Made by a program: the position numbers and the translations under genes. DNA of 36,705 nt from contig CAADGB010000397.1 in assembly GCA_900696455.1 (NCBI GenBank), positions 1 to 36,705 of the forward strand, written 5' to 3'. Within the stretch, counting starts at the first letter, position 1, and every line of letters starts with the position of its first letter. Source of the DNA: an uncultured delta proteobacterium (GTDB lineage Bacteria; Myxococcota_A; Polyangia; Haliangiales; Haliangiaceae). The notes beneath the pieces were generated by a model, which saw nothing but the letters and a program-made list of their open reading frames with translations, was not told the origin of the DNA and searched no databases. Below are positions 2,340 through 11,985 of this stretch, one piece after another.

Positions 2340-3788
2340 TCAGTCCCACTGGCTGGTGAGGTAGACCTGCCACCCGTGCAGCGTGCCGGCGGCGCCGGCG
2401 CCGAGGGTCTCGACCACCAGCTTCCAGCCGCCGTTGACGTAGGCGTCGCCGCTGATGCCGCCGCGCGGGCGCAGCCCGGCGCCGAGGAGCGCGCCGTCGG
2501 TGGCGCCGTCCCAGAGGAGGCCGCGATCGCCGTTCGGATCGTCGAGCCAGATCCGCACCCGGCGCGGGTCGACGCCGCGCAGATCGACGTCGACCAGGAT
2601 GTCGATGGGCACCGTGGCCAGGCCGTGGACCACCGCGGTGGTGGTGAACGACGCGCCGGCGGCGGCCGGCACCTGCTGCGGGACGTCCATGGTGAAGGTG
2701 CCGGTCATCCACCCGGCGACGCACACGCCCTGGTCCCACAGCGCGCCGCCGGCGCAGACCAGCCCGGCCGCGCACGCCCGGGTCGCCGAGCACGGGTCGC
2801 CCTGTCCGGGCTGGGTGCGGGTGTCCTGACACACGCCCAGCGCCGTCGAGCCGTCGTGGGCCTGGCCCCAGCATCGCCGCGGCAGGCCCCCGCAGTCCGC
2901 GTTGTCGACGCACAGCGGCGCCAGCTCGGCGGTCAACGCGTCGACGCAGGGCGGGACGTGGACGGTGAAGAAGGTCTCGTAGTCGACGCCGCAGAACGGC
3001 GCGCCCAGGGGGCCGGCGCACACCGCGTCGAACACCGGGCCCAGGGCCTCGGCGTCGACGCAGATCATCGCGGCCTCGGCCAGCGACACGCCGTCGACCA
3101 CCTGGGCCTCGACGCAGGCCCGCATGCCCGCGCGCAGGCCGGGGTGGCAGGTGACCTCGGTCGACGGCGCGCGCCAGCCGGGCGCCCACACCCGCAGCTT
3201 CTCGAGCGCCGAGGTCCCGACGTAGGCCACGGCGGCGACGGCGTGGAGGTCGGCGTGCGGCCGGCGGTCGACCAGGTTGCGGGCGGCGCGGACGTCGAGC
3301 GCGGCGTCGACGTCGAGCTCGGTCAGGGTCGCGCCGTTGGCGGCGGCGACGATCGCGGCGGCCTCGGCCGCGGTCAGGTGGACGCCCTCGACGTGGAGGG
3401 TGGGGATGCCGCCGATCGAGTCGACGTACGCCACCAGGCGCGCGATCGTCGCCGGACCGACCTGGGGGATGGCGTCGAGCTCGGCGATCGAGTCGAGCAG
3501 GTCGTCGTCACCGGTGCCGAGCAGCCCGTCCGGTCCCCGGACATGAGCCACGATGTTGCGGGCGGCCCGGACGTCGAGCGCGGCGGCCACGTCCAGGGTC
3601 GCGACGTCCGCGGCCGGGCTGTTGAGGAAGCGCAGGACGCCGATGGCCTCGGCGCTGCCGTCGGCGACCGCGCCCTCGTGGGCCCCCAGGTCGTCATCGA
3701 GGCAGCCGGCGAGGCCGGCGAGGCCCCCGAGGCCGAGGGCCAGCGGCAGGAGCAGGGAGGCGCGGGCGAGGGCGGAGAGGCGCGACAT
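2340..3788 (-). CDS. Lipoprotein with duplicated helix-hairpin-helix units and a C-terminal P-domain-like fold
   Basis: The protein has 482 residues. A signal peptide ends in the lipobox LAGC (C29), so it is exported and lipidated. Two related units follow, each opening with LDV(A/D)AALDVRAARN(I/L)V; the first continues into a ComEA-like helix-hairpin-helix (IAELDAIPQVGPATIARLV). A Cys-rich middle follows, including the NADCGG-type motif common in myxobacterial secreted proteins. The last ~120 residues resemble a proprotein-convertase P domain (RIWLDDPNGDRG, then GGWKLVVETLG, then GWQVYLTSQW). ATG 3788 is preferred over the in-frame ATG at 3800 because the sigma-54-type promoter upstream predicts a transcript starting at about 3791. 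HhH motifs usually bind DNA, so extracellular DNA binding is possible but unproven. Confidence 0.85.
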   Translation of the reverse strand: MSRLSALARASLLLPLALGLGGLAGLAGCLDDDLGAHEGAVADGSAEAIGVLRFLNSPAADVATLDVAAALDVRAARNIVAHVRGPDGLLGTGDDDLLDSIAELDAIPQVGPATIARLVAYVDSIGGIPTLHVEGVHLTAAEAAAIVAAANGATLTELDVDAALDVRAARNLVDRRPHADLHAVAAVAYVGTSALEKLRVWAPGWRAPSTEVTCHPGLRAGMRACVEAQVVDGVSLAEAAMICVDAEALGPVFDAVCAGPLGAPFCGVDYETFFTVHVPPCVDALTAELAPLCVDNADCGGLPRRCWGQAHDGSTALGVCQDTRTQPGQGDPCSATRACAAGLVCAGGALWDQGVCVAGWMTGTFTMDVPQQVPAAAGASFTTTAVVHGLATVPIDILVDVDLRGVDPRRVRIWLDDPNGDRGLLWDGATDGALLGAGLRPRGGISGDAYVNGGWKLVVETLGAGAAGTLHGWQVYLTSQWD

Positions 3789-3801
3789 GCCGCCGTCCAT
3801 C

Positions 3802-3816
3802 AGCAACCGCCGTGCC
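3802..3816 (-). promoter_or_regulatory. Sigma-54 (-24/-12) promoter
   Basis: On the minus strand the element reads GGCACG-GCGG-TTGCT, matching the sigma-54 consensus TGGCACG-N4-TTGC(A/T) at every informative position except the leading T (C here). The -12 C is at 3803, which predicts +1 at about 3791, 3 nt before the ATG at 3788. The same element at the same distance precedes the gene starting at 9138. Confidence 0.75.
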
Positions 3817-3866
3817 GCGACAACCCGTGTCGTGACGGTCGGTTGGACCCTGCGGCCGATCCCGGG

Positions 3867-3887
3867 AGTGTCGCCGCCAGCGACACT
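3867..3887. promoter_or_regulatory. Inverted repeat, candidate enhancer-binding-protein site
   Basis: AGTGTCGC (3867-3874) and GCGACACT (3880-3887) form a perfect 8-bp inverted repeat with a 5-nt spacer. The centre is about 86 bp upstream of the predicted sigma-54 transcription start, a usual place for an activator site. A second copy of the half-site in opposite orientation, GCGACA-N5-TGTCG, lies at 3817-3832 next to the -24 element. Confidence 0.5.
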
Positions 3888-3981
3888 GGCGGCCGCAGCG
3901 GCCAGGCCGCTCTGCCCGCCACGGGCCAGCCGCGCGCGGCCCTCCACCCCGCCCGCCACGCCAGCCGCCCGCGGCCCCTGC

Positions 3982-7506: not shown

Positions 7507-9138
7507 TCAGCGGCGGGCGGCGCAGGCGCGGCCGTAGATCGTGCTGCTCGACGAGCTCGCCACCAGCTTGCAGGTGTAGCCGTCGCCGCAGCCGGCGTCG
7601 GCGACGCAGGCCGCGGTGCAGGTCTTGCCGCCGGCGGTCGCGACGCACAGGTTGCCGGGCCCGCCGCAGTCGGCGTTGACGCGGCAGGCCTTGCCGAAGC
7701 CCGCGACCCGGGCCCACGGCACGACCGTCGGGTTGTCGTCGATGCCGTGCATCCCGTACATCGTGGCGAAGCCCCGCGACGACGCGTCGAGCTTGGTGAG
7801 CAGGCTCGACACCGGCTGCGGGCGCAGCCGCTGCAGGCTGTCGCGGGCGAGGAGCGTCGACAGGAAGTGCTGGACCGCGGCCGGCGACGACGCGTTGGAG
7901 AACGAGGTCGTGGTGATCACGTCGACGTGCTTGCCGGCCTTGGCCGGGTTCTCCTTGAACGCGGTGCCGATCTGGTAGGTGTCGCAGCCCTCGGCCAGCA
8001 CGAGCTGGTAGCGATCGGCGGGCATGGGCGCGACCCGGATGTCGTCGTCATCGAGGTCGCCCTCGGCGGTCTTCTTCCAGTTGGCGAGGGCGAAGCCGTA
8101 GAACGGCCCGGAGTGGCCGGAGTAGACGATGACGTCGCGGGTGGCGAGCGAGCCCAGGGCCAGCTCCTCCAGCAGGCGACCGCCGGCGTCGGTGTCGGGA
8201 TCGGTCGGGGTGCCGGGCTTGCCGAAGTACAGGCGGACCTCGACGTCGACCGTCCGGCCGTCGGCCTTGACCGTGCGCTTGAACGCGCCCGAGGTGTGGG
8301 TCAGGCGCTCCCAGCTCGACACCGGCGGGCGGAAGCCCTGGTTGTCGAGCCAGGTGAACATCTGCTTCGAGTGCTTGAGGTGGTACTCGGAGTGGTAGTC
8401 CCAGCCGAAGTAGACGTCGATGTCGAGCTTGCCGTCGGCGGTCAGCCGGGCGAGGTCGAAGAAGCCGTCGGTGGACGGCCGCTCGCGCTTGATCGAGAAC
8501 GTGATCGCCTCCTTGCGCGCCGCCGGCACGGTGGCCGGGTTCCAGCTCGACCACGGCGCGTTGCGGTACCACTCGGCGTTGGTCTCGAGCTGGGCCAGCT
8601 CGGCGTTGGTGGGCCGGCCGATCTCGAGATCGAACACGGTCTGGCCGCCGACCTGGCGCGTCGGCAGCTTGCTCATCAGGTTGCGGCCGCCGGCGGCGAT
8701 CTGGCGGAAGCGGAAGTCGTAGGTCAGGCCGTCGGCGCGGGGGCGGATATCCCAGTCCTCGTAGGCGCCGGCCTTGGCCATGCCGCCGAAGCCGCCGAAG
8801 CTGGCCGACGGATCGTCGTCCTCCTTGTCGACCAGGTACTGGGTGATGAACCAGGCGATGGCGACGTGCTTGAGGCCGATCAGCTCCTGGGCCGCGGCCA
8901 GGCGCTCGGCCTCCGGCTTGCCGGCCATCGCCGGGTCGAGCACCACCGCGCTCTGGCCCTCGAGCAGGTACTCCTGGGCGGTCAGGCTGTAGAAGTCGTC
9001 GGCCTTGCCGTCGTCGACGAAGATGCTGTCCTCGGGGTCGTCGGCGTCGAGCGCGTCGTCGTGACAGCCGGCGCCCAGCAGCGACAGGGCGAGACCGGCG
9101 GCGACCAGGGGAGCGGGCGAGCGGCGAGGCGGGCGCAT
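7507..9138 (-). CDS. Lipoprotein with a possible caspase-like (clan CD) His/Cys dyad
   Basis: The protein has 543 residues. A signal peptide ends in LLGAGC (C25), so it should be lipidated and exported. An acidic linker (DADDPEDSIFVDDGKADD) is followed by a ~400-residue domain I cannot name with certainty. It shows an order of elements typical of clan CD peptidases: a strand-helix unit ending in FTWLDNQGF, then a hydrophobic strand into YSGHSG (H342), then another strand into LAEGCDTY (C385). Gingipains and caspases carry their catalytic His and Cys at the ends of two neighbouring strands in this way. The C-terminus is Cys-rich (RVNADCGGPGNLC), like other secreted proteins here. ATG 9138 fits the sigma-54 promoter upstream. 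Export is fairly sure; peptidase activity is inference. Confidence 0.82.
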   Translation of the reverse strand: MRPPRRSPAPLVAAGLALSLLGAGCHDDALDADDPEDSIFVDDGKADDFYSLTAQEYLLEGQSAVVLDPAMAGKPEAERLAAAQELIGLKHVAIAWFITQYLVDKEDDDPSASFGGFGGMAKAGAYEDWDIRPRADGLTYDFRFRQIAAGGRNLMSKLPTRQVGGQTVFDLEIGRPTNAELAQLETNAEWYRNAPWSSWNPATVPAARKEAITFSIKRERPSTDGFFDLARLTADGKLDIDVYFGWDYHSEYHLKHSKQMFTWLDNQGFRPPVSSWERLTHTSGAFKRTVKADGRTVDVEVRLYFGKPGTPTDPDTDAGGRLLEELALGSLATRDVIVYSGHSGPFYGFALANWKKTAEGDLDDDDIRVAPMPADRYQLVLAEGCDTYQIGTAFKENPAKAGKHVDVITTTSFSNASSPAAVQHFLSTLLARDSLQRLRPQPVSSLLTKLDASSRGFATMYGMHGIDDNPTVVPWARVAGFGKACRVNADCGGPGNLCVATAGGKTCTAACVADAGCGDGYTCKLVASSSSSTIYGRACAARR

Positions 9139-9151
9139 GGCGAGGCCAGAG

Positions 9152-9166
9152 AGCAACCCCCGTGCC
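9152..9166 (-). promoter_or_regulatory. Sigma-54 (-24/-12) promoter
   Basis: On the minus strand this reads GGCACG-GGGG-TTGCT, again a near-consensus sigma-54 element. Predicted +1 is about 9141, 3 nt before ATG 9138. The 14-nt distance from TTGC to ATG is identical to that of the promoter at 3802-3816, although the intervening bases differ. Confidence 0.72.
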
Positions 9167-9361
9167 GCCACGCGGGCCCGTGATGACGCGGAGTTACTCG
9201 CCGGCGCGCCGGGGTCGACCGTGGGTGGCCAGTCGAGCCGCCGGCAACGCGCCCCGCGGCGCCGGCGCCCAGACACGCCGAGGCACCCGGGCGCGACCGC
9301 CAGGGCGGCGCCGGGACCCGGGCGAGGCGCCGTGGCGACGGCGACAGCGCGCGGCAAAGAG

Positions 9362-9374
9362 CGGCTGACAGCCG
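9362..9374. promoter_or_regulatory. Inverted repeat in a 327-bp divergent region
   Basis: CGGCTG-A-CAGCCG is a perfect 6-bp inverted repeat in the gap 9139-9465 between two divergent lipoprotein genes. It lies about 90 bp upstream of the plus-strand start at 9466 and about 220 bp from the minus-strand sigma-54 promoter. Apart from that promoter and the AAGGA ribosome site before 9466, I see no gene or other signal in this gap. Confidence 0.3.
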
Positions 9375-9465
9375 TCGGCCGTGGTGGCGCCGCGCCCCCG
9401 CGTGCAACGCTCCGGCCGGCGCGCGGGTCTGCTCGACCGCCGCCGCCTCCCACCAAGGATCCGCC

Positions 9466-11985
9466 ATGACCCGCGCCGTCTCGTGGCCTCGCCCCGTCCC
9501 CGCCCTCCTGGCCGCGCTCGCCGTCGCCGCGCCCGCCGTCGCCGCCTGCGGCGACAACGACCCCGGCGACACCATCGCCGACGTGGTGCGCCGCACCCCC
9601 GAGCTGTCGACCCTGGCCGGGGTCCTGGACGAGGCCGGCCTGATGGAGACGCTCGATCGCGAGGGCTCGCTCACGCTGTTCGCCCCCACCGACGAGGCCG
9701 TCGCGCGCTTCCTCGCCACCCAGGGCCGGGACCTGCCCGACCTGCTCGCCGCGCCCGAGCTGCGCGACCTGCTGCGCCACCACCTGATCGAGACCGCCGT
9801 CGACGGCGAGGCCCTGGCCGCCGCCCGCGAGCTCACGACCGCCTGGGGCGGCGCCATCCTCGTCGACACCGACCCGCTCGGCGTCGAGCTCGACAGCGAC
9901 ACCCGGCTGGTCGGCGAGCCGCTGCCCGCCTCCAACGGCGTCGTCCACCGCGTCGACGCGGTGCTGGCCCGCCCCACCGTCTCCACCCACGCCAGCGCCG
10001 CGCCCCGCCGCCTCGACACCTTCAACCAGGACGTCCTGCTCGTCGACGCCCCGGGCTTCGTGCGCGGGGTCGAGGTCGAGGTCGATCTCGACGCGGCGCG
10101 CGTGTTCGGCACCTACCTGTTCCTGGTCCACGAGGCGAGCGGCACCACGGTGCGGCTGGTGGGCGCGCCGGACACGCTCAACGCGGGGATCGAGACCACC
10201 TTCACCGATCGCGCGCTCCTCGACGTCGTCGACGACCTGCCGTTCGGCGAGGGTGGCGGGCCGGCGTTCCCGGCCCCGCGCTACCGCCCCCACGAGCCGC
10301 TGCGCTACTTCTACGGCCTGCCCGCCGCCAGCGAGTGGAGCCTCTACGTCTACCACTTCAGCGGCGGCGGCCCGTCGCCCCAGCCCGACACCCTCCAGCG
10401 CTGGACGCTCCGCCTCGTCACCACCGCCGAGCGCCCCGATCCGACCTTCGCCATGGCGCGGCCGCGCGGGGTGAGCGCGATCGTCGCCCACCCGGTGCGC
10501 AGCACGCTGCCGGTGGCGGTCAAGCGCCTGGCCGGGATGACCGAGCCCATCACCGTGACCCTCGCCGCCGACGGCCTCGACGCGACGCCGGTGGTGATCG
10601 CGGGCGACGCCGAGATCGCCCACGTCCCGTTCGCGGCCACCGGCCCCGAGCTGGGCGAGACCCGGGTCCGCGTCGACGCCGCCGCCAGCCGGCGCCAGCG
10701 CCGGGTCGAGCTCGGCGGGGAGCGGGTCACCGCCGACGCCCAGGGCACGGAGCTCCTCGCCCAGCTCCCGCTGGCCGAGCTGGGCGCCGCCGGCGGCAGC
10801 GGCAACGACGTCTGGGGCTGGACCGATCCGGTCACCGGCGCCGAGTACGCGATCATGGGCACCTCCGCCGGCACCGCGTTCGTCGACGTCTCGACGCCGA
10901 CCCGGCCGCGCGTGGTCGGCGTCCTGCCCACCCACACCGAGCACAGCATGTGGCGCGACATGAAGGTCTACCGCGACCACGCCTACATCGTGAGCGAGGC
11001 CGCCGGCCACGGCGTGCAGGTCTTCGACCTGACCCGGCTGCGCGGCGTGACCACGCCCATGACCTTCACCGCCACCGCCCACCACGGCGGCGTCGGCCAC
11101 GCCCACAACATCGTCATCGACGAGGCCAGCGGCTTCGCCTACGTGGTGGGCGCGGTCGACGGGGGGCCGCAGCTCTGCAGCGGCGGCCTCTACATGCTCG
11201 ATCTCGCGGTGCCGGCGGCGCCGACCTTCGCCGGCTGCTTCGCGGGCGGCGTGCCCGCGGGCGCCAGCCCCGGCCCCGCGTTCCCCACCGGCGTCTACAC
11301 CCACGACGCCCAGTGCGTGGTCTACGCCGGCCCCGACGTCGAGCACCAGGGCAAGCAGATCTGCTTCACCTCCGACGGCGACGACGTCTCGCTCGGCATC
11401 GCCGACGTCACCGACAAGGCGACGCCGGTCCAGCTCGGCCGCTTCACCTACCTCGGCAACGGCTACAGCCACCAGGGCTGGCTGACCGAGGACCACCAGT
11501 TCTTCCTGCTCAACGACGAGTTCGACGAGCTCGACGGCGTCGACGCCACGCGCACCTACGTCTTCGACGTCCGCGACCTCGACGCGCCGGTGCTGCACGG
11601 CACCTTCGACAACCCGCGCGACGCCGTCGGCCACAACGCCTACGTCCACGAGGGCCTGCTCTACCAGGCCAACTACACCAGCGGCCTGCGCGTGGTCGAC
11701 CTCGCCGGGATCGCGACGATGGCGCTGGCCGAGGTCGCGTACTACGACACCTACCCCGACGACGATCGCGCCGACACCCCCGGCCAGCGCTGCGGCCGTC
11801 GCGGCGACGCCTCCGCCGGCGGGTGGTTCGCCGCGGCCGGCCCCCGCCCTCACCCCGGCGCCGGCCGCGCCTGCGGCGTGGCCACCTACGCCGGCGCATG
11901 GAGCACCTACCCGTTCTTCGCCAGCGGGACGATCCTCGTCAGCGACATGCAGCGCGGCCTGTTCCTGGTCCGACGCACGCCCTGA
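9466..11985 (+). CDS. Lipoprotein with fasciclin domain and choice-of-anchor-B (LVIVD-type) beta-propeller
   Basis: The protein has 839 residues. The signal peptide ends in VAAC (C28), indicating a lipoprotein. Residues ~36-170 are a fasciclin domain (TIADVVRRTPELSTLAGVL, then LTLFAPTDEAVARFL, then NGVVHRVDAVL). A middle beta-sandwich of ~180 residues resembles a P-domain-like fold (WSLYVYHFSGGG). From about residue 440 the protein matches the choice-of-anchor B family: GNDVWGWTDPVTGAEYAIMG, then TAFVDVSTPTRPRVVG, HAHNIVIDEASGFAYVVG and HDAQCVVYAGPD. Fasciclin and LVIVD modules are linked to adhesion at the cell surface. ATG 9466 has AAGGA 7 nt upstream. A short Gly/Pro-rich insertion with two cysteines (around 11,785-11,880) interrupts the last propeller blade. 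Confidence 0.9.
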   Translation: MTRAVSWPRPVPALLAALAVAAPAVAACGDNDPGDTIADVVRRTPELSTLAGVLDEAGLMETLDREGSLTLFAPTDEAVARFLATQGRDLPDLLAAPELRDLLRHHLIETAVDGEALAAARELTTAWGGAILVDTDPLGVELDSDTRLVGEPLPASNGVVHRVDAVLARPTVSTHASAAPRRLDTFNQDVLLVDAPGFVRGVEVEVDLDAARVFGTYLFLVHEASGTTVRLVGAPDTLNAGIETTFTDRALLDVVDDLPFGEGGGPAFPAPRYRPHEPLRYFYGLPAASEWSLYVYHFSGGGPSPQPDTLQRWTLRLVTTAERPDPTFAMARPRGVSAIVAHPVRSTLPVAVKRLAGMTEPITVTLAADGLDATPVVIAGDAEIAHVPFAATGPELGETRVRVDAAASRRQRRVELGGERVTADAQGTELLAQLPLAELGAAGGSGNDVWGWTDPVTGAEYAIMGTSAGTAFVDVSTPTRPRVVGVLPTHTEHSMWRDMKVYRDHAYIVSEAAGHGVQVFDLTRLRGVTTPMTFTATAHHGGVGHAHNIVIDEASGFAYVVGAVDGGPQLCSGGLYMLDLAVPAAPTFAGCFAGGVPAGASPGPAFPTGVYTHDAQCVVYAGPDVEHQGKQICFTSDGDDVSLGIADVTDKATPVQLGRFTYLGNGYSHQGWLTEDHQFFLLNDEFDELDGVDATRTYVFDVRDLDAPVLHGTFDNPRDAVGHNAYVHEGLLYQANYTSGLRVVDLAGIATMALAEVAYYDTYPDDDRADTPGQRCGRRGDASAGGWFAAAGPRPHPGAGRACGVATYAGAWSTYPFFASGTILVSDMQRGLFLVRRTP

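Follow-up and report, generated by a model that had tools for sequence, protein, structure and literature searches.

The closest described systems are the canonical σ54 (RpoN) −24/−12 promoters, which work with enhancer-binding proteins and which surveys associate with lipoproteins and with the outside of the bacterial cell (Francke et al. 2011, PMC3162934; a 2025 survey, PMC12316311). As usually described, they come with a leader and a Shine–Dalgarno sequence. The distances in the earlier survey are binned by 100 nt, so that a peak at a 2–3-nt leader is not resolvable (PMC3162934), and leaderless genes go unmentioned in the later one (PMC12316311). For leaderless genes, a −10 box abutting the start codon has been described (Zheng et al. 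2011, PMC3160421; a −10 motif of Deinococcus–Thermus, PMC12340547), and a map of transcription start sites in Bradyrhizobium contains leaderless mRNAs with σ70-type extended −10 elements (PMC4842269). Lipoproteins under σ54 control are known from spirochaetes, namely Leptospira (PMC5243855) and, through the Rrp2–RpoN–RpoS pathway, Borrelia (PMC3037356).

Here we describe two lipoprotein genes, A and B, from a 36,705-nt stretch of DNA (the window) of an uncultured member of the Polyangia, whose genome is a metagenome assembly of 8.0 Mb in 554 contigs. Their promoters resemble canonical σ54 promoters in consensus, spacing, upstream inverted repeats and the link to lipoproteins and the cell exterior, but have a predicted leader of 2–3 nt. 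They resemble −10-box leaderless genes in that the promoter core is predicted to set the transcript start (+1) at the start codon and that a Shine–Dalgarno sequence is absent; those genes, however, use the σ70 element TANNNT, whereas a σ54 promoter requires an activator. As in Leptospira and Borrelia, lipoprotein genes appear to be driven by σ54, although spirochaetes are another phylum, the Borrelia effect runs through RpoS, and we saw nothing in PMC5243855 or PMC3037356 to say that their lipoprotein transcripts are leaderless. In the open-access journal literature on σ54 and leaderless genes or on myxobacteria and leaderless genes, we found no published class of near-leaderless σ54 genes. 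Leaderless expression has been described as a σ70 feature; the set described here is a class-wide one of predicted σ54 promoters that abut start codons. The genes and their core features are as follows.

2340–3788, minus strand: gene A, a 482-amino-acid lipoprotein with lipobox LAGC; two genomes of the same genus hold orthologues (67–73% identity)
3803–3816, minus strand: −24/−12 σ54 element of gene A, GGCACG-GCGG-TTGC(T), an exact match that is also present in orthologues L045 and L046
3789–3791, minus strand: predicted 3-nt leader of gene A, GGC, with the predicted +1 at G 3791, placed from the −12 position
7507–9138, minus strand: gene B, a 543-amino-acid lipoprotein with a GAGC lipobox and a DGKADD motif; no Pfam family
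9153–9166, minus strand: −24/−12 σ54 element of gene B, GGCACG-GGGG-TTGC(T), an exact match that 14 orthologues keep
9139–9141, minus strand: predicted 3-nt leader of gene B, GCC, with the predicted +1 at G 9141, placed from the −12 position

Relative to the σ54 consensus TGGCACG-N4-TTGCW, both genes match GGCACG-N4-TTGCT exactly and lack the T that precedes GGCACG, a position at which C or G is frequent in place of the usual T. At gene A, GGCACG occupies 3816–3811, TTGC 3806–3803 and the ATG 3788–3786 (3816–3802 for the element with its final T); at gene B the corresponding positions are 9166–9161, 9156–9153 and 9138–9136 (9166–9152). The initial annotation had proposed a −24/−12 element at gene A and the same element, at the same 14-nt distance from TTGC to ATG but with different intervening bases, at the gene that starts at 9138; the coordinates bear out both statements. 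These are the only zero-mismatch copies of GGCACG-N4-TTGCW in the window. With up to two mismatches the window has 8 copies against 21 expected from shuffles, which is no excess, and the window alone is therefore uninformative about enrichment.

Taking the C of TTGC as −12 places +1 at the twelfth base after it. This base is G in 8/8 sites of the same genome with a 14-nt distance, and elsewhere in 21 of 37 and 13 of 21 sites (34/58). In five genomes of family f14, the base directly 5' of the ATG is C in 34 of the 37 sites with a 13-nt distance, far above neighbouring positions. The sequence fits a 2-nt leader or initiation on the A of the ATG equally well, so that the leader could possibly measure 0–3 nt. 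Neither A nor B has a Shine–Dalgarno sequence between promoter and ATG, and a predicted leader of 2–3 nt leaves no room for one.

In both genes, a signal peptide and lipobox follow directly from the proposed ATG (...GLAGC in A, ...LGAGC in B; lipoboxes were called with a regular expression or by eye, without a trained predictor). Gene A has no curated Pfam family above the cut-off, and weak matches to Flot and HHH fall below it. For gene A, the start at 3788 is favoured over the in-frame ATG at 3800, as had been suggested, because the orthologues have no counterpart of the latter and because 3800 is located 5' of the position at which transcription is predicted to start. The longest open reading frame of gene A (2340–3959) opens at a GTG at 3959, 5' of the promoter, and a gene finder could pick this GTG or the ATG at 3800.

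Conservation and enrichment are evident beyond the window. The gene A element is kept at 13 nt from the ATG in both available orthologues. The gene B orthologues (n = 14, 60–79% identical) also keep the element, with TTGC-to-ATG distances of 12–16 nt (13 in seven, 14 in four); remoter relatives mostly lack a recognizable element. Named records place gene B relatives in Myxococcales, Kofleriaceae and Sandaracinaceae assemblies, which points to a Kofleriaceae-like myxobacterium as the source of the window. Across the whole home genome, GGCACG-N4-TTGCW occurs at 22 sites versus 4 for the reversed-pattern control. An ATG or GTG exactly 13–14 nt 3' of TTGC is present at 14 of these 22, where about one is expected (binomial p ~4e-14), so that motif plus spacing clearly exceeds chance. 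Allowing any spacing of 5–35 nt gave 41 rows versus 4 in the control, with about 20 distinct sites at 13–14 nt. In 0.97 Mb of contigs that were not picked for matches, GG-N8-TTGCW stands 13–14 nt before coding starts nine times, against about 0.5 for each other position, and the looser GGC-N7-YTGCT 13 times. Extrapolated very roughly from this sample, the genome may hold about 70–100 near-leaderless σ54 genes. It encodes RpoN as one Sigma54_DBD protein; this gene may be essential, as is reported for M. xanthus (cited in PMC12316311).

The same arrangement extends across the class. With spacing fixed at 13–14 nt, 59 genomes of the class (the home genome included) gave 277 matches, versus 13 for the reversed pattern and 57 at a decoy spacing of 23–24 nt, in hand-made sums that may include some sites twice because of the variable gaps; 11 class members gave 97 matches versus none in the control. 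In the five f14 genomes, which are among these 11, free spacing yielded 127 rows with peaks at 13 nt (37) and 14 nt (21). A family outside the class, f31, shows the inverted order, with 12 matches at 13–14 nt versus 27 at 23–24 nt, and many of its sites at 23–24 nt have GGAGG before the ATG. The distance of exactly 14 nt noted at the outset thus holds for A and B but is not a fixed value, since 13 is the commonest distance, 14 the next and 12–16 the range. The idea that selection acts on the position of the transcript start gains support.

We consider it very likely that A and B have σ54 promoters at which transcription starts 2–3 nt before the start codon, that their mRNAs are translated as leaderless messages, and that the two genes share a sigma factor and a promoter layout but probably not an activator. 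RNA polymerase with σ54 would form a closed complex at each site, with its start point 2–3 nt (possibly 0–3 nt) 5' of the start codon, and an enhancer-binding protein about 50–60 bp upstream of the −24 box would remodel this complex. The resulting mRNA would begin 5'-G(N)C-AUG, without a Shine–Dalgarno sequence, and would have to enter translation by the leaderless pathway. This layout is part of a lineage with many promoters abutting start codons, the σ70 counterpart being TANNNT 6–9 nt before ATG or GTG. Many different activators would control the σ54 targets of the class, which are chiefly lipoproteins along with other exported proteins.

The equal spacing of A and B had been read as suggesting a common regulon of surface lipoproteins. 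A lipoprotein-rich set of σ54 targets is indeed supported. Ten of the 17 best sites in the home genome precede lipoproteins (simple lipobox pattern and by eye), and a similar pattern applied to the home genome, the only one so measured, gives a background of 13–17% (Fisher p 0.01–0.02 for 9/24 versus each comparison set). In other genera, lipoproteins account for 29/48 near-leaderless and 11/20 leadered σ54 genes (p = 0.79), counts in which some entries of one genus, g33, may be orthologues counted repeatedly; the remainder are mostly exported. The equal share with and without a leader means that the bias goes with σ54, and a short leader as the cause of the lipoprotein link was rejected.

It is unlikely, however, that A and B form one co-regulated set under a single activator with equal spacing as its signature, even though both encode lipoproteins in a class whose σ54 targets are rich in them. 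The near-leaderless spacing is genome-wide and class-wide, also precedes cytoplasmic genes and does not depend on lipoprotein content. Moreover, this genome has a general habit of placing promoters right next to start codons: in 0.97 Mb of it (for example, L150–L229), TANNNT ends 6–9 nt before a coding ATG or GTG in 159 cases, versus about 5 for each other position. Equal spacing therefore needs no shared regulon. Extrapolation of this σ70-type signal suggests leaderless genes on the order of a thousand in the genome. The σ70 pattern was found in every sampled Myxococcota family; a correlation across clades between σ54 and σ70 leaderless use was accordingly rejected, and by itself this phylum-wide pattern does not explain why the σ54 version is concentrated in one class.

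The candidate activator sites, which were picked by eye, also differ between the two genes.

3869–3885, minus strand: gene A, candidate site for an activator, TGTCG-N7-CGACA, located 52 bp 5' of GGCACG
9227–9245, minus strand: gene B, candidate site for an activator, degenerate, GCCGGCGGCTCGACTGGCC; the window copy falls under a confident score

The half-sites of the first lie exactly 52 bp upstream of GGC in 3/3 gene A orthologues, with one mismatch in L045. Gene B orthologues carry CCGGCTAG-N4-CTAGCCGG at 37, 46–48 or 57–59 bp 5' of GGC, in steps of about 10 bp, or about one helical turn, a pattern noticed post hoc. In the sampled genome, the exact gene A repeat adjoins a σ54 site at gene A only, and the exact gene B site occurs nowhere; no shared A/B regulon could therefore be assembled. 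Nor was a common candidate activator site found for A and B, whose conserved inverted repeats are not alike. The window proteins scanned with Pfam include no activator gene, and the genome as a whole has 76 PF00158 rows, about 65 of them strong σ54 activation domains. On the indirect evidence of the differing repeats and the many activators, separate activators are the simpler reading, and A and B are probably controlled by two different ones. The step from equal spacing to a shared A/B regulon is thus not supported.

Under a further alternative, the element next to the ATG would be a secondary or weak promoter, with most mRNA coming from a σ70 promoter farther upstream and carrying a normal leader. 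We regard this as very unlikely, common as it is for one gene to have multiple promoters, given that orthologues keep motif and spacing though their flanks diverge and that a sequence resembling Shine–Dalgarno precedes the ATG in just 6 of 75 near-leaderless rows. These rows are the f14 sites at 12–16 nt; at 22–37 nt, such a sequence is present in 27/33, which implies two coexisting layouts, one near-leaderless without Shine–Dalgarno and one leadered with it. It is extremely improbable that the motif arises by chance or from base composition in a GC-rich genome, or that it serves translation and has nothing to do with σ54: the relaxed motif does not exceed shuffles in the window, but the counts against reversed controls (22 versus 4, 97 versus 0 and 277 versus 13), the exact −24/−12 spacing and the same motif farther from the start codon in leadered, Shine–Dalgarno-bearing σ54 genes all speak against it.

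The class-wide set of predicted near-leaderless σ54 promoters yields a sequence rule, GGCAYG-N4-TTGCT-N12/13-ATG, that predicts σ54 targets and fixes start codons where gene-finding programs may go wrong in the GC-rich genomes of myxobacteria. It also supports, for one more phylum, the idea of σ54 control over surface lipoproteins. More speculatively, and somewhat less likely than not, Polyangia might express most of a large, activator-gated σ54 regulon of surface lipoproteins from leaderless mRNAs, coupling stringent on/off transcription to translation independent of Shine–Dalgarno sequences. Were this the case, such mRNAs could be translated selectively upon changes in ribosomes or initiation factors, for instance in starvation or development. 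With the class-wide set, a possible coupling of leaderless translation to activator-gated transcription can be examined.

Some further features of these loci are worth recording. Gene B and a fasciclin-domain gene (9466–11985) are divergently oriented, and the intergenic region (9139–9465) carries both the σ54 site and the candidate activator site of gene B. Gene B and another σ54 lipoprotein, L242, share a short DGKAD motif that comes after the lipobox region (DGKADG in L242). Two loci of the home genome, L009 and L012, encode paralogous, apparently cytoplasmic proteins (VPTIDHEAPVAVLREA...), each with a near-leaderless σ54 site; a similar-looking protein in a distant genus, L289, which possibly belongs with them, also has such a site, and a conserved non-lipoprotein target is possible. 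Repeated units resembling TGGCCGGGATCCGGACG occur 5' of the σ54 site at L009, L012, L146 and L175, at some of these loci more than once. Next after L146 comes a transposase-like protein, and these units may be REP-type repeats.
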